The translations under genes and the position numbers were made by a program. This document shows positions 33,824-61,988 of a DNA stretch of 64,000 nt, piece by piece. The notes beneath the pieces were generated by a model that searched no databases, had not been told where the DNA came from, and saw only the letters and a program-made list of their open reading frames with translations. How positions within the stretch are numbered: the stretch's first letter is position 1; every line of letters begins with the position of its first letter. The stretch comes from Colwellia sp. (GTDB taxonomy: Bacteria > Pseudomonadota > Gammaproteobacteria > Enterobacterales > Alteromonadaceae), in assembly GCA_020630795.1 (NCBI GenBank), contig JAHDIK010000002.1, positions 1 through 64,000 on the forward strand. The letters run 5' to 3'.

Positions 33824-36724
33824 ATGACTACTCAATCTTTATCTCAATCTACATTAAACGAATTAGAACAAAATCAAGACTTTATTCGTCGCCATATCGG
33901 TCCTGACGAAGCGCAAACTCAAGCAATGTTAAACGACATAAATGCCGAATCTGTAGATGCGCTTATTGATGAAATTGTTCCAAAAAACATTCGTTTGGCT
34001 GATTTACCTAACATTGAAGAAAGTAAAACAGAAGTAAAAGCACTTGCCGACTTAAAAGCCGTTGCAAGCTTAAATAAAGTAAACGACAGCTACATTGGTT
34101 TAGGTTATTACGGCACATTAACGCCAAACGTAATTTTACGTAACGTATTAGAAAACCCAGGTTGGTACACAGCATATACGCCTTACCAACCTGAAATCGC
34201 ACAAGGTCGTTTAGAGTCATTATTAAACTACCAACAAATGTGTTTAGACCTAACAGGATTAGACCTAGCGTCAGCATCATTGCTTGACGAAGGCACAGCA
34301 GCCGCTGAAGCCATGGCATTAGCTAAACGTGTTTCTAAAAACAAAAAATCGAACACTTTCTTTATTTCAAGCGATGTTTACCCACAAACTATCGACGTTG
34401 TTAAACAGCGTGCTGAAATGTTTGGGTTTGACGTAGTGATAGAAGCGGCAGACGAAGTTGTAAATCACGACGTATTTGGTGCCTTGTTACAATACCCAAG
34501 TGCAACAGGTGAAGTTCGCGACATCAGCGACCTTATTGCACAAGTTCACGCTAAAAAAGGGATTGTAGCTGTAGCTGCCGACATTATGAGCTTAGTGATG
34601 TTGAAAGCGCCGGGTGAATTAGGTGCAGACGCAGTAATTGGTTCAAGCCAACGTTTTGGTGTACCAATGGGATACGGCGGACCACACGCTGCGTTCTTTA
34701 CAACGTCAGACAAATACAAACGTTCGTTACCGGGTCGTATTATTGGTGTGTCTAAAGACACGCGCGGTAACAATGCATTGCGTATGGCTATGCAAACGCG
34801 TGAACAACACATTCGTCGTGAAAAAGCCAACTCAAACATTTGTACAGCACAAGTATTGTTAGCAAACATGGCAGCGTTTTATGCGGTTTATCATGGTCCT
34901 CAAGGTTTAAAAACCATTGCTAACCGTATTCACCGTTTAACAGATATTTTATGTTTAGGTACTGCAACAAAAGGCTTAACAGCAATTCATGCTAACTACT
35001 TTGACACACTAACGTTTAACACAAACGACAAAGACGCAATTGTAGCGCGTGCACTTGCCGCTAACTTAAATTTACGTACAGATGTTGACGGTCAAATCAG
35101 CGTTTCATTAGACGAAACAACCACAAGCGAAAACGTAGCAACATTATTTAACGTATTGCTTGGCGAAGGTCATGGATTAGACGTAGCTGAGTTAGACGCT
35201 CAAGTTATCGCGTCGGGTTATTCATCATTTCCTGCTGAACTTGTTCGTGAATCAGAGTTTTTAACGCACCCAGTGTTTAACTCACACCACAGCGAAACAG
35301 AAATGCTTCGCTACATCAAAAAATTAGAAAACAAAGATTTAGCATTGAACCACTCAATGATCTCTTTGGGTTCTTGTACCATGAAGTTAAACGCAACCGC
35401 TCAAATGATCCCAGTATCATGGCCTGAGTTTGCCAACATGCATCCATTTGCTCCTATTGACCAAGCACAAGGTTACAAGCAAATGATTGACGAGTTAGGC
35501 GATTGGTTAGTAGAGCTAACAGGTTACGACAACATTTCAATGCAACCAAACTCTGGTGCACAAGGTGAATACGCAGGCTTAATTGCTATTCATAAATACC
35601 ATGAAAGCCGTGGCGATGCGCACCGTAACATTTGTTTAATTCCATCTTCTGCACATGGTACCAACCCCGCGTCAGCACAAATGGTGGGTATGAAAGTTGT
35701 TGTTGTAGACTGTGATAAAAGCGGTAACGTAGACATGGCTGACTTAAAAGCGAAAGCTGAAGAGTTAGCCGACAACTTGTCGTGTATCATGATCACATAC
35801 CCGTCTACTCACGGTGTATATGAAGAAACAATTAAAGACATATGCGATATTGTTCATGCTAACGGCGGCCAAGTTTACCTAGATGGCGCAAACATGAACG
35901 CACAGGTAGGTATTACATCTCCAGGTTTTATTGGTGCCGACGTATCACACTTAAATCTACACAAAACATTTGCTATTCCACACGGTGGCGGTGGCCCAGG
36001 TATGGGACCAATTGGTGTTAAATCTCACCTTGCACCGTTTTTACCTGATCACGCTCTAATTAACGTGGCAGAAAGCACACAAGGTAACGGCGCAGTATCA
36101 GCAGCACCATTTGGTAGCGCAGGTATTTTATGTATTTCTTACCTTTACATCGCAATGTTAGGTAAAAAGGGCGTAACCGATGCCACTAAATACGCAATTA
36201 CTAACGCAAACTACCTAGCGCATAAACTTAGCCAACATTTCCCAATTTTATATACGGGTAACAATGGCCGTGTAGCGCATGAATGTATTGTAGATTTACG
36301 CCCACTTAAAGAAGCGTCAGGCATTACAGAAATGGACGTAGCTAAGCGATTAATGGATTACGGATTCCATGCACCTACCATGTCGTTCCCAGTAGCGGGC
36401 ACGTTAATGATAGAACCAACAGAGTCAGAAGCTAAACCAGAGCTAGATCGCTTTATTGAAGCAATGACGTGTATTCGTGACGAAATTCGTAAAGTAGAGC
36501 AGGGCGAGTGGACAGTAGAAAACAACCCTCTTCACAACGCACCGCACACACTAGCCGACATTACAGGCGAGTGGGACAGAGGTTACACCATTGCTGAAGC
36601 AGTATTCCCAGTACCAGCAGCGGCCGCTAACAAATTCTGGCCGACAGTAAACCGTATTGATGATGTTTATGGGGATAGAAATTTAGTATGTAGCTGTCCT
36701 GCTACGGAAACGTATAAAGATTAA
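33824..36724 (+). CDS. gcvP: Glycine dehydrogenase (P protein)
   Basis: A 966-residue PLP enzyme of the fused type (E. coli GcvP has 957). It decarboxylates glycine and passes the aminomethyl group to GcvH. The N-terminal half carries [17 protein letters not shown] and the GYYGT motif. The C-terminal half holds the PLP-binding Lys714 in [18 protein letters not shown]. The C-terminus NLVCSCP is also typical. It is the last conserved chromosomal gene before the defence/mobile island. Confidence 0.98.
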
Positions 36725-36751
36725 TAACTAATTGATTGTCACTTTCGAATT

Positions 36752-36801
36752 AAGTTTGAAACAATAGAAACAAGTTTGAAACTTTAATAAAGTTTGAAAG
36801 T
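36752..36801 (+). repeat. Three AAGTTTGAAA repeats after gcvP
   Basis: The 10-mer AAGTTTGAAA occurs at 36752, 36772 and 36790, all in the same orientation, between the gcvP stop and its terminator. No function is known to me. The spot is the junction between housekeeping genes and the island. Confidence 0.75.
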
Positions 36802-44213: not shown

Positions 44214-44281
44214 TCTACCACATCATTTGATTCTGGTGTAATATTTGTTTTAACTATTTTGGATGCTAGAAAAAGGGAATT

Positions 44282-47983: not shown

Positions 47984-47984
47984 A

Positions 47985-48617
47985 ATGAACTTAAGAAACG
48001 TATTGGAAAAGTTATATAACGAGAAAAAGTTCATTTGTCCTTACACCGATGAAGAGTGTTATGAGTTTCTTGAAACAAATGAAGGTCAAATTCAAATTGA
48101 TGCAGCAATGGCTGTATTTGACAGAAAACTAACAAGAGTTAATGAAAATGGCGCTTTTTATCTCACGTCAACTGATCCAGAGCATGCAACAGATAGACTA
48201 TTGCTGAAGAAAGAGTTTTTGAAAGTTAGAGATGAGATTGAGCCGGTAGTTGAGTTCTTAGTATTTATTTCTAAGGTTAAAAGCGATGCGGGTGTTCTCG
48301 TTTCTGGTGACATTATTCGTTACGCAGAGATACTGAATTTAGTAACAGACAACGAGTTGCATCTAAAGCATTTAAATCAATTAGTTCAGTTATCAGCGTT
48401 TAAAACTGTTAAAAAGTCTACAACTGATAAGTTAATCGCATTGTTTGACGGGCTAGAACGTTTAAATTTACTGGTTGTTAAAAATCGCAGCGAGATGCTT
48501 TACCAAATCACAGGTAAAGTAGATTACATTCATACTGTGATGGAGTTTATTGCTGAATATGAAGTGATAGCAGTCGATGAAGAAGAAGCGGAACAAATAG
48601 AGTTAGCACATGAATAG
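47985..48617 (+). CDS. jetB: MukE/KITE-like subunit (JetB-type)
   Basis: A 210-residue acidic protein between SMC-like and kleisin-like genes. It appears to be composed of winged-helix-like segments (FLVFISKVKSDAGVLVSGDIIRYAEIL and LNQLVQLSAFKTVKKSTTDKLIALFDGLERLNLLVVKN). Size and place match the MukE/MksE-type KITE subunit that binds the kleisin. It overlaps the next gene by eight bases, indicating coupled translation. Direct sequence recognition is weak; the call leans on position. Confidence 0.6.
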   Translation: MNLRNVLEKLYNEKKFICPYTDEECYEFLETNEGQIQIDAAMAVFDRKLTRVNENGAFYLTSTDPEHATDRLLLKKEFLKVRDEIEPVVEFLVFISKVKSDAGVLVSGDIIRYAEILNLVTDNELHLKHLNQLVQLSAFKTVKKSTTDKLIALFDGLERLNLLVVKNRSEMLYQITGKVDYIHTVMEFIAEYEVIAVDEEEAEQIELAHE

Positions 48618-49836
48618 CTTAGCGGAAAAATTTGCCGAACTAGGTAAGGCGTTAACACAAAATGCTGAAGCTATAGCACGACTTACCGAGCTGAACGGAG
48701 AGGAAGAAAGTGATTTAGGTGAACTAACTCGTCTCTTTAATACTTTAACTAGTTATAACATTATTCACGGTAATGAAGTTGAAGGTTTTAGTGCATCATC
48801 TGTTTTAGTTGAGCTTTCATACCTACTAAATAAGCAAGAGGCAAATAGACGTTTATCACCAGATGTGAACGAATGGTTAGCCCAATTACACCTTAAAATA
48901 TCACAGTTGAACCAAGCGAAAGAAAGTAAAAATACTCGAACATATGGTCAGCATTTAACTGATATACGCGGTATGGTTTTTCTAATGCGTGATGGGATTG
49001 GCAATGAAGTTAGATCAATTGAAATTGCTTTACATACAAAGTTTGGTCATGTTGAGTCAATTGCTGATAAGCAAGCAGAAAACAAGTATTTAATTAATCG
49101 CCTTGATCGACTCACTAAAAAGTTGTTGGTATTAGATCTGCAAACCTTAAATGACTTGGCTGGCAGCAACCCTGAGTTAAGAAAAATATTAAGCGTTAAA
49201 TTATTTCGCAGCATTGATGATTGTCGAGAAGCTATATTAGCCTCTATTCCACGTTTAAAGCATTTATTATGGGAGTTTGAGAAACAATCTAAGGACTCAA
49301 AACGTGTATGGGCTTTTTATAATCACTTTAGAACTCATAGCCAAGGTTTTAAATACGATCCTACTGATGACGAGCTCACTGAGTTAGTTTTACCTTGTCA
49401 TACTGATAATAACATTAAAGAATTAGCTGCTGATGTAGAGAACCAAAGTTATTTTGCAAGCCATATAGATTTGCTTAATACACTTAAACCAAGGCATGAA
49501 CTTAATCTTGACCAAAACCAAGAGAGCAAAGAGCCACCGAATTTTGAAGGTGAAGCTAATTCAGAAGAATTAATTGAATACAGCGATAGGATGGAAGCTC
49601 ATCTTATTGAAATGTTGCGCTTATCAAAAGTTGAAAGGGTTTCATGTAGAGAATATTGGAAGTTGAATCTGGGCGAAACAGGCTACCCATATGGATTTAT
49701 GTCTTATGCTTATAAAGAGCTTAATCAAATAAAGTCGCTCAAGACAAAGCGAAAGTTAACTGTAAAAACTAAGAAGGCATTTGAGCAATCTGCAACAGTT
49801 AGTGTTACTGATTTAATTTTGGAGCCGCTAAGTTGA
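48610..49836 (+). CDS. jetA: Kleisin-like subunit (JetA/MukF-type)
   Basis: A 408-residue, mostly helical protein. An N-terminal region (about 40-75) looks like a dimerisation winged helix (LVELSYLLNKQEANRRL), the middle (about 150-235) is helical, and the C-terminal 60 residues are basic. Placement after the MukE-like gene and its size fit a MukF/MksF-type kleisin that bridges the SMC heads. It overlaps both neighbours by a few bases. No single diagnostic motif was recognised, so the call depends on operon context. Confidence 0.58.
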   Translation: MNSLAEKFAELGKALTQNAEAIARLTELNGEEESDLGELTRLFNTLTSYNIIHGNEVEGFSASSVLVELSYLLNKQEANRRLSPDVNEWLAQLHLKISQLNQAKESKNTRTYGQHLTDIRGMVFLMRDGIGNEVRSIEIALHTKFGHVESIADKQAENKYLINRLDRLTKKLLVLDLQTLNDLAGSNPELRKILSVKLFRSIDDCREAILASIPRLKHLLWEFEKQSKDSKRVWAFYNHFRTHSQGFKYDPTDDELTELVLPCHTDNNIKELAADVENQSYFASHIDLLNTLKPRHELNLDQNQESKEPPNFEGEANSEELIEYSDRMEAHLIEMLRLSKVERVSCREYWKLNLGETGYPYGFMSYAYKELNQIKSLKTKRKLTVKTKKAFEQSATVSVTDLILEPLS

Positions 49837-50666
49837 GTATTACAATTGGAGAACAAGACTACTACCAACTTAGCAAGTACTTGAGAACGGCATGCGATAA
49901 CGTTCCTGCTAAAGGTATTTGGCTAGCATTATTCAATGAATATAATGTTGGCACTCGACAAGTCGATTTAATTACTCTTACAGCTACTAACCGTGCATTT
50001 ATAAGAGAAAAAGTTAAAAGCTTAACAGGCTTCGATCCTATTGATGAGCCAGCTGAAAAGTTAGCGCAACGCACTCGAACTCAAAATAGTAAGTCTGGAA
50101 AAAATGAAAAATTTATCTCGCTTAAGCCGCGAGAGATTTTCATAGAGTATCGAGTACTTACTTCCAAAACTGTCACTCAGGGCTATTTTGGCGGTGATAT
50201 TGAACAAGTATTATCTTTGGGTATTGAAGCAGTTGTTAGTGTCGAAAACTTCGATACTTTTGCATCTGTTTCTTACACTCAATTATCTGAAGCAATTAAT
50301 ACCTCAGAGCCAGTAATCGTTATTTACAGAGGGGATAATATTGCTTCCCCTAAAGCTGTATCGACATTACGGGAGAGGTTTAAGGGAGCATGGTTTCACT
50401 TTGGTGATTTTGATCCTCAAGGAATCAATATTGGCGTTGTAGATATGAAAGCTAATGGCATTATTTTACCTACTTTGGAAGATATTGAAGCTCATCTATC
50501 TCTTTCTAAAAAAGATACGTATTTAAGGCAGAATAAAAACTTGATGCTTGCACATATAGAAACTCCCTTAAAAGATCATATTGAACTGATGAAGTCTGAA
50601 AAGCTAGCAATCATGCAAGAGCATATTTGTGCTCATCAATTAAGATTGACCAGTATTTTAATGTGA
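49833..50666 (+). CDS. jetD: TOPRIM nuclease subunit (JetD-type)
   Basis: A 277-residue protein. The C-terminal half contains a TOPRIM-like arrangement: Glu in VVSVENFDTF (about 137), then VIVIYRGDN and the DxD in HFGDFDPQGINIG (about 193-195). This pattern is that of the topoisomerase VI A-like domain of Wadjet JetD (DUF2220-type), which makes the DNA cut. It overlaps the preceding gene by four bases and is last in the operon. It is shorter than many JetD proteins. About 250 bases separate it from tnsA. Confidence 0.72.
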   Translation: MSITIGEQDYYQLSKYLRTACDNVPAKGIWLALFNEYNVGTRQVDLITLTATNRAFIREKVKSLTGFDPIDEPAEKLAQRTRTQNSKSGKNEKFISLKPREIFIEYRVLTSKTVTQGYFGGDIEQVLSLGIEAVVSVENFDTFASVSYTQLSEAINTSEPVIVIYRGDNIASPKAVSTLRERFKGAWFHFGDFDPQGINIGVVDMKANGIILPTLEDIEAHLSLSKKDTYLRQNKNLMLAHIETPLKDHIELMKSEKLAIMQEHICAHQLRLTSILM

Positions 50667-50913: not shown

Positions 50914-51768
50914 ATGAAACCAAAATATAAAGTCAATTTAAAAGAACTCGCTAGACTTCGAGAATGGAAAGCCAAAAATAAGAAAGGTCGAAAGCAAAAG
51001 CTTGAACATCCTCTTCAGTATTACCGTTCATTTATTGATATTGACGCTGTTAATTCAATTAGCCGAAGACACCTCTATCACTGTCCTGTTCAAAAACGAC
51101 TTGTTCACCTTTTAAGTGATGGTGAAGCCAATGCATATAAGCGATTAATGTATGAACCAGATGTTATTGGCATTCGAGAACAGTTTCCACTCCACCTACC
51201 TAAAACATTAAAAATAGCGAGTAAACTGAGATTTATTCATCCAAGGAATTGGAAGACTAAAGAACTTTATATCATGACAACAGACTTACTCGTTGATCGT
51301 GTTAACTTCACTTCGGGTGAGGTTTATCAGCAAGCTTGTAACTTCAAATACTGGGATGCTATTTATCAGTACACTGATGAGGGCATTGTGATTAAAAAGA
51401 GCTGGCGTACTTGGCAAAAAAATCAGATAGAAGAAATCTATTGGCTGGAAAATAACGTTGAATGCATTCAGGCAACTGAGCGAGATTCAACAAAAATAGC
51501 AGTTCAAAATATCTCTTGGTTTCAAATGCGTCACGATTTAAATGTCGCTCAAAGTGAGCTTCAATATTTTAAACGGTTATTCTTTAAATCATATTCAAAT
51601 AACCCTAGAGCTTGGTTAGAAGTACACCTAGCTTACGTTTGTAAGCTCATGGGGGCTTCATTTCGTGATGCTCAAGCTATCTTTCAATTTGCAGCGTATC
51701 ACCACGAGCTTAGTTTAAATATTGAATACCCAATAAGGCTTTCAGAGCCAGTAGCGGTGAACTTGTAA
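50914..51768 (+). CDS. tnsA: Tn7-like transposase TnsA (endonuclease)
   Basis: A 284-residue protein with the TnsA layout. An N-terminal restriction-enzyme-like domain carries Glu in YEPDVIGIREQFPL (about 88-92), Asp in IMTTDLLVDRV (about 123) and a Lys in QACNFKYWDA (about 145), followed by the Glu-rich KNQIEEIYWLENN. A C-terminal winged-helix-like part follows. In Tn7, TnsA cuts the 5' strands so that the element leaves cleanly. Its stop overlaps the tnsB start (TAATG). A hairpin covers its ribosome binding site. Confidence 0.9.
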   Translation: MKPKYKVNLKELARLREWKAKNKKGRKQKLEHPLQYYRSFIDIDAVNSISRRHLYHCPVQKRLVHLLSDGEANAYKRLMYEPDVIGIREQFPLHLPKTLKIASKLRFIHPRNWKTKELYIMTTDLLVDRVNFTSGEVYQQACNFKYWDAIYQYTDEGIVIKKSWRTWQKNQIEEIYWLENNVECIQATERDSTKIAVQNISWFQMRHDLNVAQSELQYFKRLFFKSYSNNPRAWLEVHLAYVCKLMGASFRDAQAIFQFAAYHHELSLNIEYPIRLSEPVAVNL

Positions 51769-54047
51769 TGTTTGGCGTTAATGAGGTCTATAGCAATATT
51801 AAACAAGGTATTCAGTTAAAAGTTTGCCATGTTGCAATCGATTTGGCCAAACTTGCTGTGGTTGATTTAGTTCGTTTGGAAGATGGGAAACCTATTTGCA
51901 AACCCAAATCATTTCAATTTGATGAATTTGCGGCATATATCAAAGAGAACAAGCTACAGCGAACTATTGAGATGCTACCTGCATGGATTAATTTCGACGA
52001 TGAAAAACTAGTAGGTTTAGGTAAAGAAAACTGGATAGTAAAACGAGATAAAAAGCTAAAAATAGCTGGTTCATTGTTCACAGAAGAAACAATAGATGAG
52101 TACCTCTACGGTGGTGGAGTTGGAGATCAGATAAGTGATCTTCTAAAATCTAGCACAAAGTGGAAAAAATCTAGTAATTACTACCGCCAACTCAATCGTT
52201 ACATCACTTATGGTTGCATAAATAATGCTTTATTACCTTTCAGTTATGAAAACTGTGGTAGTAATTATTTTATCCCAGAAGAAAGAGGTGAGAATAATGT
52301 AAAGCGTGGACGTAAAACAATGCCAGCAAAATTGGATGGACACCCACCGCAACCAGTTTTTTCGAAATCCCCTGGAATTACAAAGAAAGAAATTCGCCGC
52401 ATTCGCAAAGTTGCTAGAACTGCTATCCGTTCAGTTAGAAAAAATATCACTGCCCGTGCAAGATTAATGTATCGACGTGAAAATGAATGTCGATTTGTAG
52501 ATGAAGAGACCCCATACGGTACGAATAAAAAATTAGTGTGGAATGATGATACTGAGTGCTTATCTGATGGCCAATTCAGGCGTCAATTTCAAAAGTTTCT
52601 GAGTGAAGAAGACAAAATAGTAGCAGCGAAAGGGCAAGTAACGTTCGATAAAGACTATGCAGATCGAAGTGGTTCTACTTGGGAGTTTTTGATTGGTCCA
52701 ACTCACCTTTATGAAATAGATGCAACGGTGATGGATCTTCATATTCGTTATCCATATTCAGACAATGAAAGATTGGCAATGGGTAGAGCTGTGTTATATG
52801 TCGTTGTTGATGTTTATTCAACATGTATTGTCGGAATTTATATCGGCTTTCATGGCCCTGACTGGATTGGCGCAGCAGAAGCATTAGTTAATGCTTTTAT
52901 GGATAAAGTCTCTTTTGCAGCACGTTATGGCTTGGAAATAAAACCTGAAGACTGGCCTTGCCATCATATCTGTTATTGGATTAATAGTGATAATGGTGGT
53001 GAATATTCTTTAGGTAATATATCACCATTACTGAAAGCTAATTTAGGGGTTCAAGAATGGACAAAAACTCGTAGCTACATGGGCGTTGCTAAAGCTGTTT
53101 CAGAAAGAAAGTTCGGTGTTATTAATGACAGCTTTCTTCATTATCAACCAGGTGCTGTCTATGAAGTTCGCAGGGAAGAACAAGATCCCTCACAAAATGC
53201 TGTTTGGGATTTACAGTCTTTATATCAAGCCGTCATTCTAGAAGTTATTCACTATAACCATACCGCTATGCGAGAAGAGCACCATGACTTCAAAGCATCT
53301 AAAATGCATGCTGGTTTTTCTCCTCAATCCATATTCAATTTTTTTATCGATGAAGAAATGGCAGGCGGAAATCCGACAACATCAGAGGATGAAGGACGAA
53401 TACGGTTAGCCTGCCTTCCTGAAGGTGAAGCTTCAGTCACAGATCAAGGAGTAAAATTTCAAGGAGTGTATTACACATCTCCTTATGCAAAAAAACAAAA
53501 ATGGTACTTTAAAGCGAAGCAGTTTGGTGTTTTTAACATAACCGTTAAGTGGAGCCGCACATCTGGTGACACTATCTGGTTTCAAACCCCAGAGAATAAA
53601 GTTATTGCTTTCAAAATAAAGCCAGACAAGAGTCGTCGCTATCAGAGACAAGCTTGGGAGGCAATTGCAATTCGTCAAACAGAGTATGCACGAGAGCGTC
53701 ACGATGCGAAACGTAAAAAAGCTCAAAGTGAATTGGAAAAAGATCATAAGCAACGTCAACTGCTACAAGGCAATCAGGATGAAATAAAAGGCTTACCAGT
53801 AAACACCGTTAAATCAAGGCAGAGTGGTATTCAAGAACGAAAAGACGAACAGTCAATTATCGATAAATCGAATATTGATAAACGTAATAAAACAGCTATT
53901 TCAAAAATAGTAACTAAACATCCAGATGAAGGCGATAGCACTGATGAGCCTATCTCTAAACCATCAAATAAAAATGCGAAGAAGCGAAAAAGAAAAAGCT
54001 TAAATTCGCGTTTACAAAACTCAAAGAATCAAAAGAAGGATAGCTAA
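51768..54047 (+). CDS. tnsB: Tn7-like transposase TnsB (DDE)
   Basis: A 759-residue transposase of the Mu/Tn7 rve family. The DDE triad is visible: Asp in YEIDATVMDLHIRYP (about 324), Asp in WINSDNGGEYS (about 407) and Glu in AKAVSERKFGVIND (about 447). N-terminal DNA-binding domains and a beta-barrel after the catalytic core are present, and the last 130 residues are a charged Lys/Gln/Ser-rich tail likely to contact TnsC. TnsB binds the ends and joins the 3' strands to target DNA. It abuts tnsC with no gap. Confidence 0.93.
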   Translation: MFGVNEVYSNIKQGIQLKVCHVAIDLAKLAVVDLVRLEDGKPICKPKSFQFDEFAAYIKENKLQRTIEMLPAWINFDDEKLVGLGKENWIVKRDKKLKIAGSLFTEETIDEYLYGGGVGDQISDLLKSSTKWKKSSNYYRQLNRYITYGCINNALLPFSYENCGSNYFIPEERGENNVKRGRKTMPAKLDGHPPQPVFSKSPGITKKEIRRIRKVARTAIRSVRKNITARARLMYRRENECRFVDEETPYGTNKKLVWNDDTECLSDGQFRRQFQKFLSEEDKIVAAKGQVTFDKDYADRSGSTWEFLIGPTHLYEIDATVMDLHIRYPYSDNERLAMGRAVLYVVVDVYSTCIVGIYIGFHGPDWIGAAEALVNAFMDKVSFAARYGLEIKPEDWPCHHICYWINSDNGGEYSLGNISPLLKANLGVQEWTKTRSYMGVAKAVSERKFGVINDSFLHYQPGAVYEVRREEQDPSQNAVWDLQSLYQAVILEVIHYNHTAMREEHHDFKASKMHAGFSPQSIFNFFIDEEMAGGNPTTSEDEGRIRLACLPEGEASVTDQGVKFQGVYYTSPYAKKQKWYFKAKQFGVFNITVKWSRTSGDTIWFQTPENKVIAFKIKPDKSRRYQRQAWEAIAIRQTEYARERHDAKRKKAQSELEKDHKQRQLLQGNQDEIKGLPVNTVKSRQSGIQERKDEQSIIDKSNIDKRNKTAISKIVTKHPDEGDSTDEPISKPSNKNAKKRKRKSLNSRLQNSKNQKKDS

Positions 54048-55427
54048 ATGAAATTATTCGAACCTGCGTTTCCTAAACCTATTTTGATTGATCAAGCAAC
54101 TTACCATGACCATCAAGATGAGTGGCTAAATGAAAACCCATTGATTCGAGCTATACCTGTAAAAGATACAGAGCTAATTAAAAAAGAAGTCAGATTTATA
54201 CCTGAACTCCCAAATCACCTTAATAACTTACTTGGCGTTTATCAAAAAACGACTTTAAAACGACTAAGCTGTATTAACGTTGTACACCCTTGGGTTGGTA
54301 CGCTTTATGAAGATATCCTATCTTCGATTTTGTTTAGTTATATAGACCGTGATCCCAGAAGACCTGAGATTAGAAGATTTCAAAAAGAGTTAACAGCGCT
54401 ATGTAGTGAGAAAGATCGCGATAAAATCTATGAGAAAATCATAGTTTCGCCGCTCAGCCCTTTGACAAGTACCAATAATGCTGTAGTTACAGGCCCTTCA
54501 GGTAGCGGTAAAACAACAACAATACGACGAACACTCTTATCTATTCCACAAGTGATCATTCATCCAGAGTTTGATAATACCCCCGAAAAATTAACCCAAA
54601 TAGTATGGTTAAGTTTTGATATGGCGGCAAGTGACTCACCTAAAGCACTTGCGCTGGCATTTTTCAGATCAATAGATATGGCAATAGGTACTACTTATTA
54701 CAGTATATGGAAGGGAAGAAAGTCAGATAGTATTGAGCATCATTATGCAGCAATGCAGTTATTAATACTTGAATACAATATCGGGTTTATTCATATTGAT
54801 GAACTGCAATTTATGTTGAAGTTTGGCTCAGGACGTAACTCGATTACATTGCAAGCTGTAGAAGCTTTATTTAATAAGCTATCTGTACCAACTCTCATAA
54901 GTTGTACGCCCGAAGGATTAACATTATTTGATCCCATCATAGCTGAGTCATCAGTTGATCTTGGTGTTATTACAACAACACGACGAATATATTCAGATCA
55001 AATTTATGTATTCGAATTAGCGCCTGTAGACTCTGACTTATTTGATGATTTATTTACCGCATTTTTCCCTGCTTCACTAAGCCAAAACCAAAACGGCTTT
55101 CAAGAATCTTTCAAAGTAAAAGTAGCAACACTCACAGCAGGACTTCTAGCTGTTATTACTCGATTGGCTCAGTTATATCATCGGATCGCCCTAAGAATAA
55201 CCGACATACCTGAAGATGAGTTACTTGAAGGTGTTTTTGTAGAGCAATTTGGCCCGCTAGCTGAAGCCCTACAGAATTTACATGAAACAGGTAACGAAAA
55301 AATGTTGGAAAATTTATTAAGTCGAGATGATGCAAATAACGTTGTTTGGGCACTGGAAGAGCAGAAAGGAAAAAACGTAAATATACGGGTAGATGTTACT
55401 GATATCAGTAATGAGCATAAAGGTTAA
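54048..55427 (+). CDS. tnsC: Tn7-like AAA+ regulator TnsC
   Basis: A 459-residue AAA+ ATPase. Walker A GPSGSGKTTTIRR (about 148-160), Walker B FIHIDELQFM (about 246) and a sensor motif LISCTPEG (about 285) are clear. It bridges the TniQ/TnsD target selector and the TnsAB transposase and provides target immunity in Tn7. It directly follows tnsB and is followed after five bases by the first TniQ gene. Confidence 0.92.
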   Translation: MKLFEPAFPKPILIDQATYHDHQDEWLNENPLIRAIPVKDTELIKKEVRFIPELPNHLNNLLGVYQKTTLKRLSCINVVHPWVGTLYEDILSSILFSYIDRDPRRPEIRRFQKELTALCSEKDRDKIYEKIIVSPLSPLTSTNNAVVTGPSGSGKTTTIRRTLLSIPQVIIHPEFDNTPEKLTQIVWLSFDMAASDSPKALALAFFRSIDMAIGTTYYSIWKGRKSDSIEHHYAAMQLLILEYNIGFIHIDELQFMLKFGSGRNSITLQAVEALFNKLSVPTLISCTPEGLTLFDPIIAESSVDLGVITTTRRIYSDQIYVFELAPVDSDLFDDLFTAFFPASLSQNQNGFQESFKVKVATLTAGLLAVITRLAQLYHRIALRITDIPEDELLEGVFVEQFGPLAEALQNLHETGNEKMLENLLSRDDANNVVWALEEQKGKNVNIRVDVTDISNEHKG

Positions 55428-55432
55428 ACCAT

Positions 55433-56356
55433 ATGAGCGTTTATCATTTTCCAGCACCGCTTGAAAGAGAGCACCTATTGAGTTGTTTAATGCGTTATGC
55501 CATATCTCAAGGCCGAAAGGAATACGTTAAAGTTGCTAAACAAGTATCGACGAATGTAAGCAAAGTTGATTGCAATAGTTATTGGCGGACAATATATCGT
55601 GATGCTTTGATCCAATATCTACCGAAGTATCATTCTCAGATTGCATTTGATAATACACTGCTAAAAGTTTATTCAAGTTTTACTCAATGCGATTTTTCCA
55701 CTTTATTAACACAGCAATTAGATCAACCTCATAAGTTGCAACTTAAGTATGCCAACCTTGAACAAGTTCACCATGGTTGGAAATGGTGCCCAGAATGCGT
55801 GATTGAAGATGAAGAAACGTATGGTGTAGCATACTGGCACTGCGACCATCAATTTGCACTTAAGAAACGCTGTAACCAACATGGCACGTTACTAATATCT
55901 GAATGCCAACACTGTAATTACTCATTTAACTCAATATTACAGGGAGCTCCGCCATTAAGCTCTTGTCCTAAATGTGGAGAAAGCTTTGAACATCAAAATA
56001 GAGAAGATTCAGGCGAAGATTTGTGGGTTGAAGACTATGCCAACCGTATTTTACAGGACGACTTTGAATTCAATAAGCCTGAGGTTCAAGCGTACTTTAA
56101 GGCTCAATATGGGTTTAATGAACTAAAGCGTCAATGGACTTTAGCTGAAAGAAAGCACATAACTTATCAGCAGGATTTATTTGGTAAATGGCTTGATACA
56201 CTAGATTTATCAAACCACCTAGTACCGTTATCGAATAATAAGCCTTATTCACAGGTCTCTGCATTTAATGTGAGTTCCTATACGTTCAAAAATCACAATC
56301 TAGCGCCGATGATTCATCTGCTATTTAAGCGTTACTGGTTGGAAAGGTTATGTTAG
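55433..56356 (+). CDS. tniQ: TniQ-family targeting protein, short
   Basis: A 307-residue TniQ protein. The N-terminus FPAPLEREHLLSCLMRYAISQG is the TniQ start motif. Two zinc-binding blocks follow: WCPECVIEDEETYGVAYWHCDHQ...CNQHG (about 120-148) and SECQHCNYSF...CPKCGESF (about 157-185). It lacks the long C-terminal DNA-reading region of TnsD. Short TniQ proteins act as adaptors to TnsC. It overlaps the next TniQ gene by seven bases, so the two are made together. Confidence 0.88.
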   Translation: MSVYHFPAPLEREHLLSCLMRYAISQGRKEYVKVAKQVSTNVSKVDCNSYWRTIYRDALIQYLPKYHSQIAFDNTLLKVYSSFTQCDFSTLLTQQLDQPHKLQLKYANLEQVHHGWKWCPECVIEDEETYGVAYWHCDHQFALKKRCNQHGTLLISECQHCNYSFNSILQGAPPLSSCPKCGESFEHQNREDSGEDLWVEDYANRILQDDFEFNKPEVQAYFKAQYGFNELKRQWTLAERKHITYQQDLFGKWLDTLDLSNHLVPLSNNKPYSQVSAFNVSSYTFKNHNLAPMIHLLFKRYWLERLC

Positions 56357-57786
56357 GTATTCTTCCCAACGAGAGCATTTATAGCTATCTCATTCGTTAT
56401 TGCTTAAAGGATGGTTATCCAACGTTAACTAGCGCCCTTAAATACTATATTGGTAGTACAAGTAAGCAATGGAGTGCTCAGTTTCCAAGCTTCATTTCTC
56501 AAGTTTCAGCATTTTCTGGAATACCATTTCAACAGCTTCTTTTTGAACACAGTGTTTATCCTGTCTACAGAGCATTTCTCTCAAAGGGAGTGGCAAATAA
56601 AGTAGAAGAGCTGTTACAAATAGGTAGTTCACTAAACGTTGAATCAAAAATGTCACTGGTTGCTAACCGTTTGCAGGCTTCAGGCGAGTTAAAATATTGC
56701 CCTTTGTGTGTGCAAGATGATCTTGAAAATTACGCTTGGGAATATTGGCATATTCAGCATCAGTTGCCGGGAGTTATTGCTTGTGTTGCTCATCAATGCA
56801 AACTCATAGTGTTTCAAATCAATAGGAAGCGTTTATTACTGCCTCCGACAGAAAAAAATATTCATTTATCAGCTAGTGATGCTGCAATTAAATTGTCAAC
56901 GCTTAGTGAAAGCTTATTTGAGTTAAACGACTTTATATTAAGAAGTGAAGTGCTTAACAATGTTTATCGCTATCGTTTGGTTGAACTTGGTTTAGCTACT
57001 AATAACAGTTCTATTCGAATTAAAGTTACTCAATGGCGAGAACAGTTAAAGCAATTTTGGGAGCCGGTTAGCAATGACCCTCAAATATCAGAAATATTAA
57101 ATAAACATAAGTGCTGGCAGTATCCTGCAAATTTATTTTATGGCAAAGATAAAGCTTTCCACCCTTTAAAGCATTTGCTTGTTATAGGTCACTTATTTGA
57201 GACGTTTGATGACTTTATAGCGCAATACCGCTTGGTAGAAAAAGGGTATGAACCAACCACCGTTATAGAAGATAAAACCCATGATAACAATGGTGATGAT
57301 AAGCCTGACGATAAAATTATTGCGCTTCTTAGGGCTGGCTACAGTTTAAGAAAGGCTTCTTCTAAATGTGACGTCAGCATTGGGTATGCGAAGAAGCTTG
57401 CTCAAATAAACGGTATTGCTATAGATAGACGAGTTCAATTTATTAATGAACCCGAGCGGCGTGACATTTGGCGGAAGTTATTCATAGGTCAAACGACAGA
57501 AAATATAGCTGACACCATGGGTATCTCTGTTGGTGCTGTTGAACAAATATTGTCTTGTTACCCTGAGCTTGTTCAGCTCAGGAAGAAAATCCGCTATTTC
57601 AATAAGCGACAGAAGCACCGACAAAACCTTATTAAATCAATTCATAAATACACCACTCGTAAAGGGATTAGGGCTGACTGCTCTGCAAGTTATATTTGGT
57701 TATACAAACATGACCATCATTGGCTTTATTTAACTTTACCAGAAGCCATACCAAGACAAAAAAGATATTTAAGTAAGGAGAAGTAA
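56350..57786 (+). CDS. tnsD: TnsD-like TniQ-family targeting protein
   Basis: A 478-residue TniQ/TnsD-type protein. The start GILPNESIYSYLIRYCLKDGYP and the zinc motif YCPLCVQDDLENYAWEYWHIQHQ...CVAHQC (about 117-150) define the TniQ part. The C-terminal half (about 315-478) contains two helix-turn-helix-like segments (IIALLRAGYSLRKASSKCDVSIGYAKKLA and GQTTENIADTMGISVGAVEQIL) and ends in a basic domain. TnsD proteins read a fixed chromosomal attachment site. The target here is unknown. The next gene starts directly after its stop. Confidence 0.85.
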   Translation: MLGILPNESIYSYLIRYCLKDGYPTLTSALKYYIGSTSKQWSAQFPSFISQVSAFSGIPFQQLLFEHSVYPVYRAFLSKGVANKVEELLQIGSSLNVESKMSLVANRLQASGELKYCPLCVQDDLENYAWEYWHIQHQLPGVIACVAHQCKLIVFQINRKRLLLPPTEKNIHLSASDAAIKLSTLSESLFELNDFILRSEVLNNVYRYRLVELGLATNNSSIRIKVTQWREQLKQFWEPVSNDPQISEILNKHKCWQYPANLFYGKDKAFHPLKHLLVIGHLFETFDDFIAQYRLVEKGYEPTTVIEDKTHDNNGDDKPDDKIIALLRAGYSLRKASSKCDVSIGYAKKLAQINGIAIDRRVQFINEPERRDIWRKLFIGQTTENIADTMGISVGAVEQILSCYPELVQLRKKIRYFNKRQKHRQNLIKSIHKYTTRKGIRADCSASYIWLYKHDHHWLYLTLPEAIPRQKRYLSKEK

Positions 57787-58290
57787 ATGACTATAGCAAT
57801 CAACCACTGGGTTGTATTCGATATTTTTAGTGACGATGAACTAACTGAATACTTTGGCCGGGCGTTATCTGGTTTTGTAACAAATGCTGGTAGCCCAAGA
57901 TTGGAGTTAGGAGAAAGAGTTTGTACTGCTGGTGTAACTGATATTTGCATGAATGATAAGCTTGTTCGAACAAAATCTGGAGAGGCATTTAACTTAAAAG
58001 GGAACGGTCAGTTTATTGAGCTTGCTATTGCTGATTTTGATTCATTTAGTCGAACCGGTTATAGCGAACAGCTATTTGAAAATCATTTATCAATGGAGCA
58101 AGTGCCGTCTGATATTAAAAGCCAATTGAACTTGCTTTTTAAATTTAATGAGAAAGTCATAGTTGAATGGTTGGTTAACCCCAAACGACCACTAAACGGA
58201 CAAGCACCAATTGAATTACTTGGCGCTGAAGAAGGCATCGAGCAGGTCCTAGGTATGCTTGAGCGAATGCGAACAGGGGACTTTTCCTAA
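57787..58290 (+). CDS. DUF2384 (Xre/MbcA/ParS-type) antitoxin-like protein
   Basis: A 167-residue protein. The last 50 residues (FNEKVIVEWLVNPKRPLNGQAPIELLGAEEGIEQVLGMLERMR) match the toxin-binding domain of Xre/MbcA/ParS antitoxins (DUF2384). The first about 90 residues (HWVVFDIF..., RVCTAGVTDICMNDKLVRTKSGEAF) are beta-rich and not recognised; no Xre helix-turn-helix is seen. It starts immediately after the TnsD-like stop and ends one base before the phosphatase-like gene. No RES-type toxin is nearby. A role with the transposon or with the phosphatase is inferred from gene packing only. Confidence 0.72.
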   Translation: MTIAINHWVVFDIFSDDELTEYFGRALSGFVTNAGSPRLELGERVCTAGVTDICMNDKLVRTKSGEAFNLKGNGQFIELAIADFDSFSRTGYSEQLFENHLSMEQVPSDIKSQLNLLFKFNEKVIVEWLVNPKRPLNGQAPIELLGAEEGIEQVLGMLERMRTGDFS

Positions 58291-58291
58291 C

Positions 58292-58618
58292 ATGAACATC
58301 TTATTCCTTTGCACTGCAAACATTCAAAGAAGTAAAACGGCAGAAGAGCTGTTCAGAGCGCTTGATAATAGCAACGAGTATCGGTCAGCGGGGTTAAGTG
58401 CCAAATATGTCAATAAAGCTGGCTCAACGCTTTGTACTGAGGAAATGCTGAAATGGGCTGATAAGGTGTACGTATTCGAAATTGAGCATATTAAGCGTAT
58501 CCATAAGCATACAGGTGATGTATTTATTTCGAAAATAGTGAACTTAGACATAGCAGATCAGTATTCTTACTTTCAACGAGAGCTGATTTTGACCTTATTG
58601 GAAAAGTGTAAATTTTAA
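58292..58618 (+). CDS. Small low-molecular-weight tyrosine-phosphatase-like protein
   Basis: A 108-residue protein with an LMW-PTP signature: Cys7-x5-Arg13-Ser14 in FLCTANIQRSKTAEE, and a late acidic motif NLDIADQY with Asp86/Asp89 as possible general acid. It is shorter than classic LMW-PTPs (about 150) but like the 105-residue subgroup whose C-terminus reads LDIPD-Y. ATG 58292 is one base after the preceding stop, so translation is coupled. An upstream in-frame start at 58259 lies inside that gene. Substrate is unknown; protein or nucleotide phosphates are possible. Confidence 0.8.
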   Translation: MNILFLCTANIQRSKTAEELFRALDNSNEYRSAGLSAKYVNKAGSTLCTEEMLKWADKVYVFEIEHIKRIHKHTGDVFISKIVNLDIADQYSYFQRELILTLLEKCKF

Positions 58619-58651
58619 GATCACGGTATAAATAATAATTAGGGCAGTACA

Positions 58652-58939
58652 ATGAAAGAACCTTTGACTGAACAATACGTTTTAAACAAGCTTAGAGAAT
58701 GGACGAGTGATGAAAAATTCACGCCAAGTCTTCTTATTTCACAAGATGATGCTTCATTTCACCTTGGTTTTTATCAAGGCATGGGGAACTCTGATAGCAC
58801 ACCTATTGAAAGGTTAGCCCCTTTATATAAGGAAATTATTAACCAGCTTTATCAGGAGGGAGAGCTGCAAGCTTCAGGTAAGGCCTATAAGTTTTATCCA
58901 GGTAGCGACTTTTTCAATAAGCTAGTTTTTAGTTCCTGA
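58652..58939 (+). CDS. Hypothetical protein
   Basis: A 95-residue soluble protein that I do not recognise. It looks mixed alpha/beta with no membrane segment or signal peptide (YVLNKLREWTSD, YQGMGNSDSTPIERLAPLYKEIINQLYQEGELQ). It starts 33 bases after the phosphatase-like gene, with a GGGCAG stretch before the ATG, and probably ends the long operon that begins at tnsA. Confidence 0.6.
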   Translation: MKEPLTEQYVLNKLREWTSDEKFTPSLLISQDDASFHLGFYQGMGNSDSTPIERLAPLYKEIINQLYQEGELQASGKAYKFYPGSDFFNKLVFSS

Positions 58940-59355
58940 TTGTTATCAGCTATAGCTAGTAATAGTTCATTTTAAGAGGAGTGAAACCCAGCATAAACTG
59001 CTGCGATAAATTTAAGTTTGGTTTTATCTTCTGAATATCAATCAATTGACTTTTTTTACTGTAAATTTCTGAAAACCGGGGCTCCTTATATAATTGAGGA
59101 CAATAAAAATTAAAATTGCCGAGATTACTTCTTCTACACTGGAAATTAATCATTAGTGGTTTTTTCTCATTTCGAAGAAATGAGGTATACCGACGCGTGG
59201 CGTCGAATAGTCCAGTTTCTTCTATTGACTAATTAACTTTAAATGTAACTTTTTTGTCGATTGATACTAGTTTTACAAAAATACAATGTATAAAACTATT
59301 GAAAGTTGTAGGATGGATTAATAAAGAAAATATTATTGTAAAACATGGAGTAAAC
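58940..59355. other. Intergenic region with two tandem hairpins
   Basis: About 415 bases without a convincing gene. Two perfect short hairpins follow each other: CTCATTTC-GAA-GAAATGAG at 59166-59184 and CGACGC-GTG-GCGTCG at 59191-59205. The reading frame upstream of the next gene is open back to a TTG at 59254, but ATG 59356 has a far better ribosome binding site. Confidence 0.55.
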
Positions 59356-60705
59356 ATGCTCAAGGAATTGGACCCGTATCAATTAACATCGCTCTTATTA
59401 ATATTATTGACAGCTACGATATTTTATATTGCTAATTCTACTTTACGCAAACGAAAGGTGCTGGCAAGTGAAATTGAGCGCAAACAAAAAGCACTTGAAA
59501 GTAAGTCAGTGGAAGTAATAGTCAATGAGTTACAGCAGTCATTACAAGAAGTTCAACAGAAGATAGACTCTGGTACACCTATTTTCAATAAGTTAGCTGG
59601 AACATTAAAGCACTCTTCAGAGCAGCTAAAGTATATAGATGTTGGCTTATTACCTCCTACCTTTAAGTTTGATGATCGTGAAGCATTAAAAGAGCAAATA
59701 GACGAATGCCTTGAACAACAGTTTAAAGTTATAAATAGTGGTGGTGCGACAACTGCTTATTCAGATTGGGAGTGGTTTGGTAGTAAAAGTAAAGGCACTC
59801 AAATGGTTAAGGCTTATCAAAGTTTATTGCTAAAAGCATTTAATGCGGAATTTGACGTAATTAGAAAGCAAATGCGGCACTCAAGTTACGATACTGCGAT
59901 TAAAAAGCTATATAGGCTTGAAGAACAGCTAGAAAAGCTAGGTGAAACAGCTAATGTTACTATTTCTCATGAATACTTTAACTTGAAAGAAGAAGAACTC
60001 CGGATTTGGCATAATGAATTAGAGCATAAAGAAAAGCTGAAGAAAGAGAAAAAGAAACAGCAAGCACTGCTTCGAGAACAAGCTAAGCAATCAGGTAGTG
60101 ATACTGACGAACTAGAAGATGATATCTATTATCGTAAATCTGATTTGAAGAAAGCTCAAAAGCTAGCTCAGCAATTACATGGAGCAGGCGCAGCTGACAT
60201 GGAACTGAAAATCAGTCGAATGCAAAAGGAAATTGACAAGCTTGAAGCTAAATTTGAAAGAGCAACTTCACAAGCCCAAATAACGAAAGTTGGTTATATT
60301 TACGTAATATCAAATATAGGCAGTTTTGGTGAAGGAGTTGTGAAAATTGGAATGACACGTCGACTTGAACCTATGGATCGTGTTAATGAGTTGGGTGACG
60401 CAAGTGTTCCGTTTAAGTTTGATGTTCACACACTGGCTTTCGTTGATAATGCCCCAAGAATCGAAAAAACATTACACCGTAAATTCAATGACAAGCGTGT
60501 AAATGTAGAAAATCATCGTAAAGAGTTCTTTAAAGTTACTCCACAAGAAGTTGCTGTTGCAATGGAGGAACTAGATATCGAGTGTGATTGGTATTTTGAT
60601 GTTGAAGCTAAACAGTTTAGAGAGAGCTTACTTATGAGAGAAGCACTTAAACAAGAGGCTACTAAAACTCAAACAGCTTCAAGCCACTTACCAGAATCAA
60701 TATAG
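59356..60705 (+). CDS. Membrane-anchored DUF4041/GIY-YIG protein 1
   Basis: A 449-residue protein starting at ATG 59356, five bases after GGAG. A single hydrophobic helix at about 10-27 is followed by coiled coil, a DUF4041-like region (about 80-230, GLLPPTFKFDDREALKEQIDECL) and a second, highly charged coiled coil (about 230-305). The C-terminal domain (about 312-400) is GIY-YIG-like of the T5orf172/MUG113 type: GYIYVISN, EGVVKIGMTRR, a Glu in RIEKTLHRKF and NHRKEFF. The membrane anchor plus nuclease-like domain suggest action at the cell envelope, perhaps on incoming DNA. It is followed 11 bases later by a paralogue. Confidence 0.78.
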   Translation: MLKELDPYQLTSLLLILLTATIFYIANSTLRKRKVLASEIERKQKALESKSVEVIVNELQQSLQEVQQKIDSGTPIFNKLAGTLKHSSEQLKYIDVGLLPPTFKFDDREALKEQIDECLEQQFKVINSGGATTAYSDWEWFGSKSKGTQMVKAYQSLLLKAFNAEFDVIRKQMRHSSYDTAIKKLYRLEEQLEKLGETANVTISHEYFNLKEEELRIWHNELEHKEKLKKEKKKQQALLREQAKQSGSDTDELEDDIYYRKSDLKKAQKLAQQLHGAGAADMELKISRMQKEIDKLEAKFERATSQAQITKVGYIYVISNIGSFGEGVVKIGMTRRLEPMDRVNELGDASVPFKFDVHTLAFVDNAPRIEKTLHRKFNDKRVNVENHRKEFFKVTPQEVAVAMEELDIECDWYFDVEAKQFRESLLMREALKQEATKTQTASSHLPESI

Positions 60706-60716
60706 AGGAGTCGAAT

Positions 60717-61988
60717 ATGTATATTACTATTGCTTTATCTGTACTTTTTTCGATATCAATCTATTTCTTGATAGTTTCTCGTTCAAAACTAAATGAACTT
60801 GAAGCTCAAAATATGGATATTCAAAAAACTTATGAACCTGCATCACTTGAAGAAAAAAAACTATCTCAATTATCAAATGAATACAGTACGTTACAATCCA
60901 GTTACCAAGAAAAGCTAGCTACATTACGTAAATCTGAAAAACGTTTGTCACAATACTATTTAGGTGTTGGTACAACTGATTCAGTTTCTTATAAAAGCCT
61001 TACGAAAGAAGAAAGTATTGATGCCGTTGAAGCTCGGCTTTTAGATATTAAAACTTCGCTGAAACACTTAGTAAGTGAAAAGAAAGCGTGTATATGTAGT
61101 ATGGGGAAAGATGTTGTTGTTAACGGTAAAAAGTCAGAGGCAAAAAAACTATTTAATCGTGAGATAAAGCTTCGTCTTCGTTGCTTAGATAATGAATTCA
61201 AAGCTGCGTTAGCAATAATAGATTGGAATAATGTCAACCGTATTATTCAAAGAACTAAAGATACATTTAGTGAAATTAATGCAACGGGTTCAATAGTCAA
61301 AACTTATCTGAAAGATCAGTATTTAAATCTAAAGATTGAAGAGTTGAGACTTACATATGAATTAAACCAAATTAAACAAGACATAAAAGAAGCTGAACGT
61401 GAGGAAGCTCAGATAGTTCGCGAAGCCGAGCGAGAAGAAAAGCGTATTAAAGCAGCAGCTGAAAAAGCCGAGAAAGATCGTAAGCTAATGGAAAAGCTAG
61501 TGGCAGAAGAGTTGAGTAAACTTGAGTCTAGTTCGGAAGAGCAAAAAGCTTTATACGAACTTCATAAACAACAGTTGCATGACTTGAGAGAGAAAGAAAA
61601 GCGTGCTGTTTCTTTAGCTCAAACAACTAGAGCCGGTTATGTGTATATCATATCTAATGAAACCTCTTTTGGTGAAGGTGTAGTTAAAATAGGTATGACT
61701 AGGCGTGCAGATCCAAATGATAGGGTAAAAGAGCTGGGTGATGCTTCTGTTCCTGAGCTTTTTGATGTTCATGCTTTTGTGTTTACTGAGGATGCACCTG
61801 TTCTTGAAAAGTTTCTGCATAACGAATTTTCAGATCAAAGAGTTAACTTAGTTAACGGTCGAAAAGAGTTTTTTTATACAAAACCAAATGATGTTCTTTC
61901 TAAACTCAAAGAATATGGTCAAAACATAGAAATAAATGAATTCGAAGTTGAGTTAAAAGAGGTAGTACCTAGCAACCCTGAGCTCTAA
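60717..61988 (+). CDS. Membrane-anchored DUF4041/GIY-YIG protein 2
   Basis: A 423-residue paralogue of the preceding protein, with GAGGAG before its ATG. An N-terminal helix (about 2-20) is followed by coiled coil, a DUF4041 block (about 95-215, VVVNGKKSEAKKLFNREIKLRLRCLDNEF) and a long Glu/Lys/Arg-rich coiled coil (about 215-300). The GIY-YIG-like domain at about 304-390 (GYVYIISN, EGVVKIGMTRR, ELGDASVPELFDVHA, LEKFLHNEF, NGRKEFF) is almost identical in key motifs to protein 1, while the rest has diverged. Retention of both copies suggests a heteromeric membrane complex, which is inference. Confidence 0.8.
   Translation: MYITIALSVLFSISIYFLIVSRSKLNELEAQNMDIQKTYEPASLEEKKLSQLSNEYSTLQSSYQEKLATLRKSEKRLSQYYLGVGTTDSVSYKSLTKEESIDAVEARLLDIKTSLKHLVSEKKACICSMGKDVVVNGKKSEAKKLFNREIKLRLRCLDNEFKAALAIIDWNNVNRIIQRTKDTFSEINATGSIVKTYLKDQYLNLKIEELRLTYELNQIKQDIKEAEREEAQIVREAEREEKRIKAAAEKAEKDRKLMEKLVAEELSKLESSSEEQKALYELHKQQLHDLREKEKRAVSLAQTTRAGYVYIISNETSFGEGVVKIGMTRRADPNDRVKELGDASVPELFDVHAFVFTEDAPVLEKFLHNEFSDQRVNLVNGRKEFFYTKPNDVLSKLKEYGQNIEINEFEVELKEVVPSNPEL

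Follow-up and report, generated by a model that had tools for sequence, protein, structure and literature searches.

A Tn7-like element behind gcvP

The window, the whole stretch of 64,000 nucleotides analyzed here, belongs to a 360-kb contig in a genome of 3.9 Mb and carries a tns operon, all on the + strand. By Pfam, tnsA (50914..51768) matched Tn7_TnsA-like_N (4.5e-7), tniQ (55433..56356) matched TniQ (3.4e-10), and tnsD (56350..57786) matched both TnsD (1.7e-22) and TniQ (2.7e-18), in each case over the cut-off; tnsC (54048..55427), encoding an AAA+ protein, matched AAA_22 (3.4e-10), with TniB below the cut-off. The gene tnsB (51768..54047) was weak by Pfam (Mu-transpos_C, 0.017) and was assigned by its position, its size, and clear homology to genes at the same place in other elements. 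Behind tnsD follow P0001 (57787..58290), P0002 (58292..58618), and P0003 (58652..58939, 95 aa, no family), likewise on the + strand. The genes tnsA and tnsB overlap by 1 base, tnsB and tnsC abut (0 bases), tnsC and tniQ are 5 bases apart, tniQ and tnsD overlap by 7 bases, tnsD abuts P0001 (0 bases), and gaps of 1 and 33 bases separate P0001 from P0002 and P0002 from P0003. The tight packing of tnsA-B-C-tniQ-tnsD with P0001 and P0002 described in the earlier note was thereby confirmed (50914-57786 running straight into 57787-58290 and 58292-58618). A ribosome-binding-like AAGGAG, read directly from the sequence, stands 6 bases ahead of the P0001 start, within the end of tnsD, and a promoter and terminator scan of 57300-59400 gave nothing above chance.

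The Tn7-like element is complete, with a length of 29,959 bp, identical 26-bp inverted ends, and a duplication of TTGAT. Its gcvP-side end (36737..36762, + strand; TGTCACTTTCGAATTAAGTTTGAAAC) adjoins the duplicated TTGAT (TSD) at 36732-36736, and TGTCACTTTCGAATTAAGTTTGAAAC recurs inverted at contig positions 66670-66695 (L200:2670-2695, past the window), followed by TTGAT. Extra copies of AAGTTTGAAAC/G are located at 36772 and 36790. The target gene gcvP (33824..36724, + strand) was recognized by eye, and the element is inserted 12 bp past its stop (stop at 36724, end starting at 36737). Inverted TGT...ACA ends, repeated sites, a 5-bp duplication, and a fixed site, as expected of a Tn7-like element, are thus present. 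TnsB sites were also sought next to tnsA, where none was convincing; the element end lies 14 kb further out. An orthologous sister element in Litorilituus lipolyticus (L067; TnsA, TnsC, and TnsD 81%, 91%, and 82% identical, respectively) has the end TGTCAGTTTCGAATAAAGTTTGAAAC, matching that of the window element, at L067:12358. Elements with distant tns genes (TnsD 32 to 33% identical) were also seen right behind gcvP in L072 and L161/L029. Among open-licence PMC papers, none was found that joins Tn7-like elements, TnsD, and gcvP.

Cargo flanks the tns operon on both sides. One side holds an AAA/OLD-like ATPase, a DEAD helicase, a WYL regulator, and the four genes of an SMC-like operon, and the other holds P0003, two PD-Lambda-1 proteins (3e-110 and 2.6e-96), and an ankyrin protein. 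The WYL regulator and the SMC-like operon occupy 43309-50666 (DUF3584, DUF7281, weak JetD likeness); this operon is Wadjet-like, without a clear Wadjet match in PADLOC. The two tandem PD-Lambda-1-like proteins, at 59254-61988 behind P0003, carry T5orf172 domains. A relative of P0003 (60% identity) also follows the pair of genes equivalent to P0001 and P0002 in L060, and a different gene does so in L067.

The two proteins and their recurrence

P0001 is antitoxin-like, and the C-terminal DUF2384 domain that the earlier note had assigned to it was borne out by Pfam (Xre_MbcA_ParS_C, PF09722; residues 115-164, 32.9 bits at a cut-off of 24.5); no HTH domain was found in it by Pfam. The N-terminal half is a separate domain; elsewhere in the order, relatives of residues 1 to ~100 exist as stand-alone proteins of ~104 aa. 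The P0001 N-terminal stretch itself matched no Pfam family, even at an E value of 10, and in the alignment of this domain, 9 of 12 members matched DUF6957 and 2 of 12 matched SANTA (PF09133; best, 9.3e-5). In an AlphaFold2 model of the stretch (pLDDT of 82), the best PDB match was the SANTA domain of M18BP1 (Foldseek E value of 4e-3), which also came first in VIA-align with a Z of 5.9 (next, 4.3), a value low enough (<8) to arise by chance. Judged from its relatives and the predicted fold, the N terminus of P0001 (residues 1 to ~100) appears DUF6957/SANTA-like. DUF6957-type domains with SANTA likeness were observed at 57787-58119 and in L004, L007, L009, L010, L012 to L016, and L022. A sequence search of the PDB with P0001 gave nothing, and the PDB matches of its N-terminal profile to a designed repeat protein and ParM look like chance. 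P0001 and P0003 were without a PADLOC match at 0.1, P0001 had no match in plasmids, and no paper on DUF6957 was found among open-licence PMC papers.

P0001 ends in GDFS, and in alignment A2 of small DUF2384 proteins the last four residues were G-D-[FLM]-S in all 21 rows (18 F, 2 L, and 1 M). DUF2384 proteins of other types (L017, L070, the 105-aa protein of L149, and L176), which were kept out of A2, end differently, and the tail is shared by small DUF2384 proteins that show neither a phosphatase nor RES beside them (e.g., L005, L006, L018, and L019, in 1.5-kb flanks). The tail is therefore not specific to a phosphatase partner.

P0002 is a mini LMW-PTP of 108 aa. Its Pfam match to LMWPc (26.6; cut-off, 23.2) is limited to residues 3-42, and the C-x5-R-S loop reported in the earlier note is intact (C7-x5-R13-S14), with the general-acid Asp D89 also present; we take C7, R13, S14, and D89 to have the corresponding catalytic roles. 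In alignment A3, which included the viral row L114 and excluded the broken phosphatases of L073 and L078, C7 and D89 were present in 27 of 27 rows, R13 in 26 (changed only in L063), and S14 in 26 (changed only in L072). The AlphaFold2 model (pLDDT of 96, pTM of 0.88) had LMW-PTPs as its 50 listed PDB matches, with YwlE, YfkJ, and Wzb as top folds and ArsC entries lower down. A PADLOC match of P0002 at 0.018 looks like chance.

Because the phosphatase alone served as the query of the genome scan, the neighbor counts carry no bias toward DUF2384. We kept 28 distinct loci, made up of the 24 close ones (L057 to L080) of 57, the window, L026, L028, and L029; these include L073 and L078, in which the phosphatase is broken. 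Left out were L027 and L030, whose contigs are those of L066 and L076, and 33 weaker loci (L081 to L113), nearly all of them partial matches to longer LMW-PTPs, with L082 as a broken pair (its phosphatase is broken as well). A DUF2384 gene lies directly upstream of the phosphatase in 12 of the 28 loci, with gaps of 0 to 56 nt (window, L057 to L061, L063, L064, L067, L075, L076, and L078). In the other 16, the gene directly upstream encodes a protein of a family here named X (4/28: L072, L079, L028, and L029), a 215- to 228-aa protein (3/28: L065, L066 [Pseudoalteromonas luteoviolacea B], and L026), or a basic ~100-aa protein (2/28: L068 and L074); DUF2384 is two genes upstream in L070, convergent with the phosphatase in L080, and absent in 5/28 (L062, L069, L071, L073, and L077). 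DUF2384 is thus not obligatory, since 16 of 28 close phosphatases do without it directly upstream. The pairing is more than chance: 12 of 28 phosphatases have a DUF2384 partner, and the P0001 search of 394 genomes gave only 12 non-self DUF2384-type places. The adjacency of the two genes that the earlier note had left to be checked in other genomes therefore recurs, and further marine bacteria carry the pair in defense islands. The N termini of the DUF2384 partners vary, being absent, of an 84-aa form, unassigned and of ~60 aa (L057/L058), or DUF6957/SANTA-like (window and L067). An AbrB-like N terminus suspected by eye in L057/L058 had no Pfam or PDB confirmation.

As to genomic surroundings, tns genes are present within 8 kb in 8 of the 28 loci (window, L029, L067, L072, L075, L076, L078, and L079). 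The earlier note had tied the pair to transposons, which holds for the 5 of 12 DUF2384 pairs that adjoin tnsD and not for the other 7, which have no tns gene over 8 kb or as far as the contig reaches. A TniQ search of the genomes of 6 of these 7 tns-free pairs (L064 left out) found none near the pair; among 17 of the 18 loci without nearby tns genes (again without L064), 9 genomes had TniQ, which seems to share a contig with the phosphatase only in L074 (at a distance of 14.5 kb) and perhaps in L070 (>100 kb), with contig identity inferred. A weak TnsB-like open reading frame in L062 (7e-5, 24%) was not reported by profile and was not counted. A WYL regulator is divergent from 5 of 12 pairs (L059, L060, L061, L063, and L064; WYL by Pfam/PADLOC for 4 of the 5) and from an X-phosphatase pair in L235, which also has HsdM nearby; L028 has a WYL regulator and HsdM and no tns genes. 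BREX PglX-BrxC-BrxF stand beside L059, an HKD+Snf2 helicase and PDC-S46 beside L061, and a TIR protein (L236) is ~5 kb off; a tyrosine recombinase adjoins the pair in L063 and is ~5 kb off in L057, and SIR2-HerA adjoins the degenerate pair L082. The label Gamma-mobile-trio, considered for the neighbors of L063/L064, was not confirmed and was dropped.

A proposed effector under an antitoxin and the alternatives

From the gene arrangement, we consider it about an even chance (probability of roughly 0.5) that P0001 and P0002 are the antitoxin and the effector of a pair of the Xre/MbcA/ParS type, with a small cysteine phosphatase in place of the RES NADase. Such a module fits the adjacency, the fusion to an antitoxin, the exchange of N termini, and the residence in mobile and defense islands. 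The fusion occurs in L063/L064, where a protein of 244/243 aa, encoded behind a short DUF2384 gene, consists of the phosphatase joined to a full antitoxin with an Xre-like HTH and DUF2384; HTH and DUF2384 are below the Pfam cut-offs, this protein is 48 to 51% identical to the RES antitoxin resident in the window's genome, and its phosphatase has lost R13 in L063. No RES gene was seen in these two loci, none was found by profile in 11 pair loci, and the partner is, as the earlier note had it, a phosphatase and not RES, no RES gene being found near any pair. Its suggestion of a new toxin-antitoxin (TA)-like or signaling pair, which stays putative, gained from the recurrent adjacency, the fusion to a RES-type antitoxin, the varied DUF2384 N termini, and the failure to find RES nearby. 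Counting against the pair are the 16 of 28 phosphatases without DUF2384 directly upstream, the occurrence of the tail away from phosphatases, the loss of R13 in L063, and the broken phosphatases of L073, L078, and L082.

In the proposed mechanism, the DUF2384 domain of P0001 would bind the phosphatase and the tail would block its active site, as NatR does on NatT; PMC11535050 describes NatR as inserting its C-terminal helix into the active site of this RES toxin, and from that analogy we infer a tail that may plug the P-loop of the phosphatase. Loss or displacement of P0001, by loss of the element or phage attack, would free the phosphatase, which could then remove a phosphate from a protein, an RNA end, or a nucleotide, so that growth stops. 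The N-terminal domain of P0001 may provide autoregulation or sensing, and in this element the tns operon would have acquired the module at its end. We know of no TA system with phosphatase effector chemistry, which would be an addition.

A somewhat doubtful alternative places the mini-PTP in a phosphatase branch of the nucleotide, ADP-ribose, and RNA-end defense network, where it would act on small molecules or RNA (e.g., on terminal phosphates of ADP-ribose or RNA ends), with DUF2384 as a regulatory or scaffold subunit and no toxicity by itself. It draws on distant relatives, for which we inspected 19 order-level loci (about 6-kb flanks; 19 of 23 places) and 28 phylum-level loci (1.5-kb flanks), which share three genomes and thus comprise 44 distinct loci; neither DUF2384 nor X was found near the mini-PTP in any of them, a point against the antitoxin-effector pair. 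Distant mini-PTPs of ~111 to 115 aa were observed in or near RNA-repair genes in L182, L184, L185, L192, and L197: by Pfam, the L185 operon encodes RtcB, a PrfH-like RF-1, the PTP, an RNA ligase, and an HD/kinase protein; by eye, L184 has much the same genes, and L197 likewise, plus an additional gene ahead of the PTP; L192 encodes KptA, NADAR, a macro domain, a basic protein, and the PTP; and L182 has Thg1 close to the PTP on the opposite strand. A small basic protein precedes the mini-PTP in L182, L192, and L196. RNA repair is reportedly the subject of Burroughs and Aravind (2016). These contexts suggest RNA-end or ADP-ribose phosphates as candidate substrates, and RES, the usual partner of DUF2384, likewise acts on NAD+. 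PMC9503650 describes the coupling of Cys-based phosphatases to ADP-ribosylglycohydrolases and WYL regulators. However, the relatives in question are ~33 to 41% identical to P0002 and outside its clade, and RNA-repair-type neighbors were absent at L183, L187, and L191 (among the matches listed). The nearest folds to P0002 are protein phosphatases (YwlE, YfkJ, and Wzb), in contrast to the RNA-repair contexts, and these folds settle no substrate.

Phages and plasmids also carry relatives of the phosphatase. Among phage records, P0002 had 5 matches, three of them in huge uncultured phages (41 to 50% identity) and two in short records (38%). The huge-phage mini-PTPs are those of L054 to L056, where no DUF2384 was found, and L054 has a NADAR-like gene (by eye) ~0.9 kb upstream of the mini-PTP, a further point for action on ADP-ribose or RNA ends. 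A 508-kb viral contig (L114) encodes a mini-PTP 44% identical to P0002. A viral-contig scan with P0002 alone gave nothing, one with alignment A1 gave five distant loci, none with DUF2384, and a plasmid search with P0002 gave 10 records (29 to 39% identity).

A role in transposition as accessory or regulatory factors substituting for tnsE (in choosing targets, modulating TniQ/TnsD, or controlling dosage), the other option in the earlier note, is unlikely in our view; by the note's own condition of a pair occurring mostly away from transposons, that part of it was nearly refuted. In its favor, P0001 joins tnsD with zero bases between them, the DUF2384 gene overlaps the tnsD end by 4 bases in L075/L076/L078, and two tns lineages, whose TnsD proteins are 38% identical, have pairs directly behind tnsD. 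P0001 is also under purifying selection and as tightly conserved as tnsD: against the Litorilituus sister element (84% identity), its dN/dS is 0.18 (tnsD, 0.16). Searched alone, P0001 had 22 non-self places in 394 genomes, 6 of them within ~3 kb of tnsD (L003, L010, L013, L017, L018, and L019); as the 31 tnsD stretches surveyed make up only ~0.0001 of the searched DNA (an estimate), this is far above chance. The WYL and tnsD-neighbor profiles were built partly from the loci scanned, so that their E values are flattered, a circularity of which the P0001-only counts are free. Among the best 31 of 46 non-self tnsD places, a gene for DUF2384, DUF6957, X, or the phosphatase lay at most 2.6 kb downstream of tnsD in 10 (two on the other strand [L157 and L169] and one weak [L176]), and such a gene was missing behind tnsD in the other 21, which speaks against this role. 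X proteins accompany DUF2384 behind other tnsD genes, and those of the phosphatase loci are their homologs. Small genes in varying sets (Y84, X, D75, and DUF2384) were seen directly or shortly behind tnsD in L151, L152, and L165; D75 had looked DUF2384-like, for which profile comparison gave no support. The phosphatases adjacent to tns genes are not one clade, the tree (distant rows left out) needing 4 label changes, and its well-supported (starred) branches forcing 4. P0002 groups with pairs and with phosphatases outside Tn7 elements, at an exact place in the tree that is poorly supported.

Against this role, 7 of the 12 pairs have no tns genes nearby, some standing instead beside WYL, BREX, or recombinases, so that a TA-like pair is the better fit and transposition the weaker reading of the two. 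Most of the phosphatase is exchanged relative to the sister element (88% identity over residues 1-24 and 48% beyond), as expected of cargo, whereas the tns genes are not; from this divergence and the differing next gene, we read a position that stayed fixed while its cargo was swapped. The five proteins scanned downstream of tnsD did not include TnsE. What persists of the earlier suggestion is the occurrence of pairs after tnsD in two lineages, the 4 tree changes, and the recurrence of DUF2384/DUF6957-type genes.

It is very improbable that P0001 is a spare antitoxin that neutralizes a host RES toxin as an anti-addiction measure, with P0002 an unrelated neighbor: the genome's only RES place found by PF08808, a RES-Xre pair at contig 72270-73336 (L200:8270-9336) with the toxin gene at 72270-72947, is 5.6 kb past the far end of the element, and L149/L150 encode, shortly behind tnsD, an Xre-like DUF2384 protein 48 to 53% identical to the resident RES antitoxin over 57 to 66 residues, but that RES already has its own antitoxin outside the element and its nearness may be accidental, the recurrent phosphatase link and the fusions would be left unexplained, and PF08808 found no RES at all in 8 of 10 other pair genomes (L064 left out), the remaining 2 having 3 RES places at least 46 kb from the pair or on other contigs (contig identity inferred).

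Returning to the antitoxin-effector pair, a broader proposal can be made only tentatively, with a chance we would put at about half that of the pair itself: DUF2384 may be a toxin-binding module of general use, independent of RES and here governing a cysteine phosphatase in a new TA/defense class; the SANTA-like domain may sense or bind DNA; and Tn7-like elements may have repeatedly wired the module into the tns operon, coupling effector control to transposition. If DUF2384 can neutralize a phosphatase, a widespread antitoxin family gains a second, unrelated class of partners, and an interpretation opens up for many of the orphan DUF2384 genes of mobile elements. The recurrence behind tnsD lets one ask whether Tn7-like elements couple a maintenance or defense module to their own expression, and bacterial SANTA relatives offer a simple setting for a domain known from centromere proteins.

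Comparison with known systems

Both domains and their carrier are of known kinds. The earlier note knew of no described system of this make-up, and our analysis agreed: the combination was not found in PADLOC, nor was DUF2384 together with a tyrosine phosphatase in open-licence PMC papers. With Tn7-like transposons (tnsABC, tniQ, and tnsD), the element shares the operon, TnsD, end repeats, the 5-bp duplication, and a site downstream of a conserved gene, here gcvP. Tn7 has tnsE at the place held here by the DUF2384-phosphatase pair, and the present element further differs from Tn7 in that its tns operon has cargo to either side. With LMW-PTPs such as YwlE, YfkJ, and Wzb, P0002 shares the C-x5-R-S loop, the acid D, and the fold (TM-score of ~0.7 over the query), but it is shortened to 108 residues instead of ~150 and has other partner genes. 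The possible likeness of the P0001 N terminus to the SANTA domain of the eukaryotic chromatin proteins M18BP1/KNL2 comes from profile matches (2/12) and predicted fold, whereas the domain here is bacterial and either fused to DUF2384 or stand-alone. Compared with the Xre/MbcA/ParS-RES systems (MbcTA, NatR-NatT, and Xre-RES), the partner, a putative toxin, is an LMW-PTP instead of RES, and where those antitoxins have the HTH, P0001 carries a domain that appears SANTA-like; the pair is likewise a small two-gene unit with the antitoxin gene first and a DUF2384 domain with a conserved C terminus, and its fusion relatives carry an HTH+DUF2384 antitoxin.
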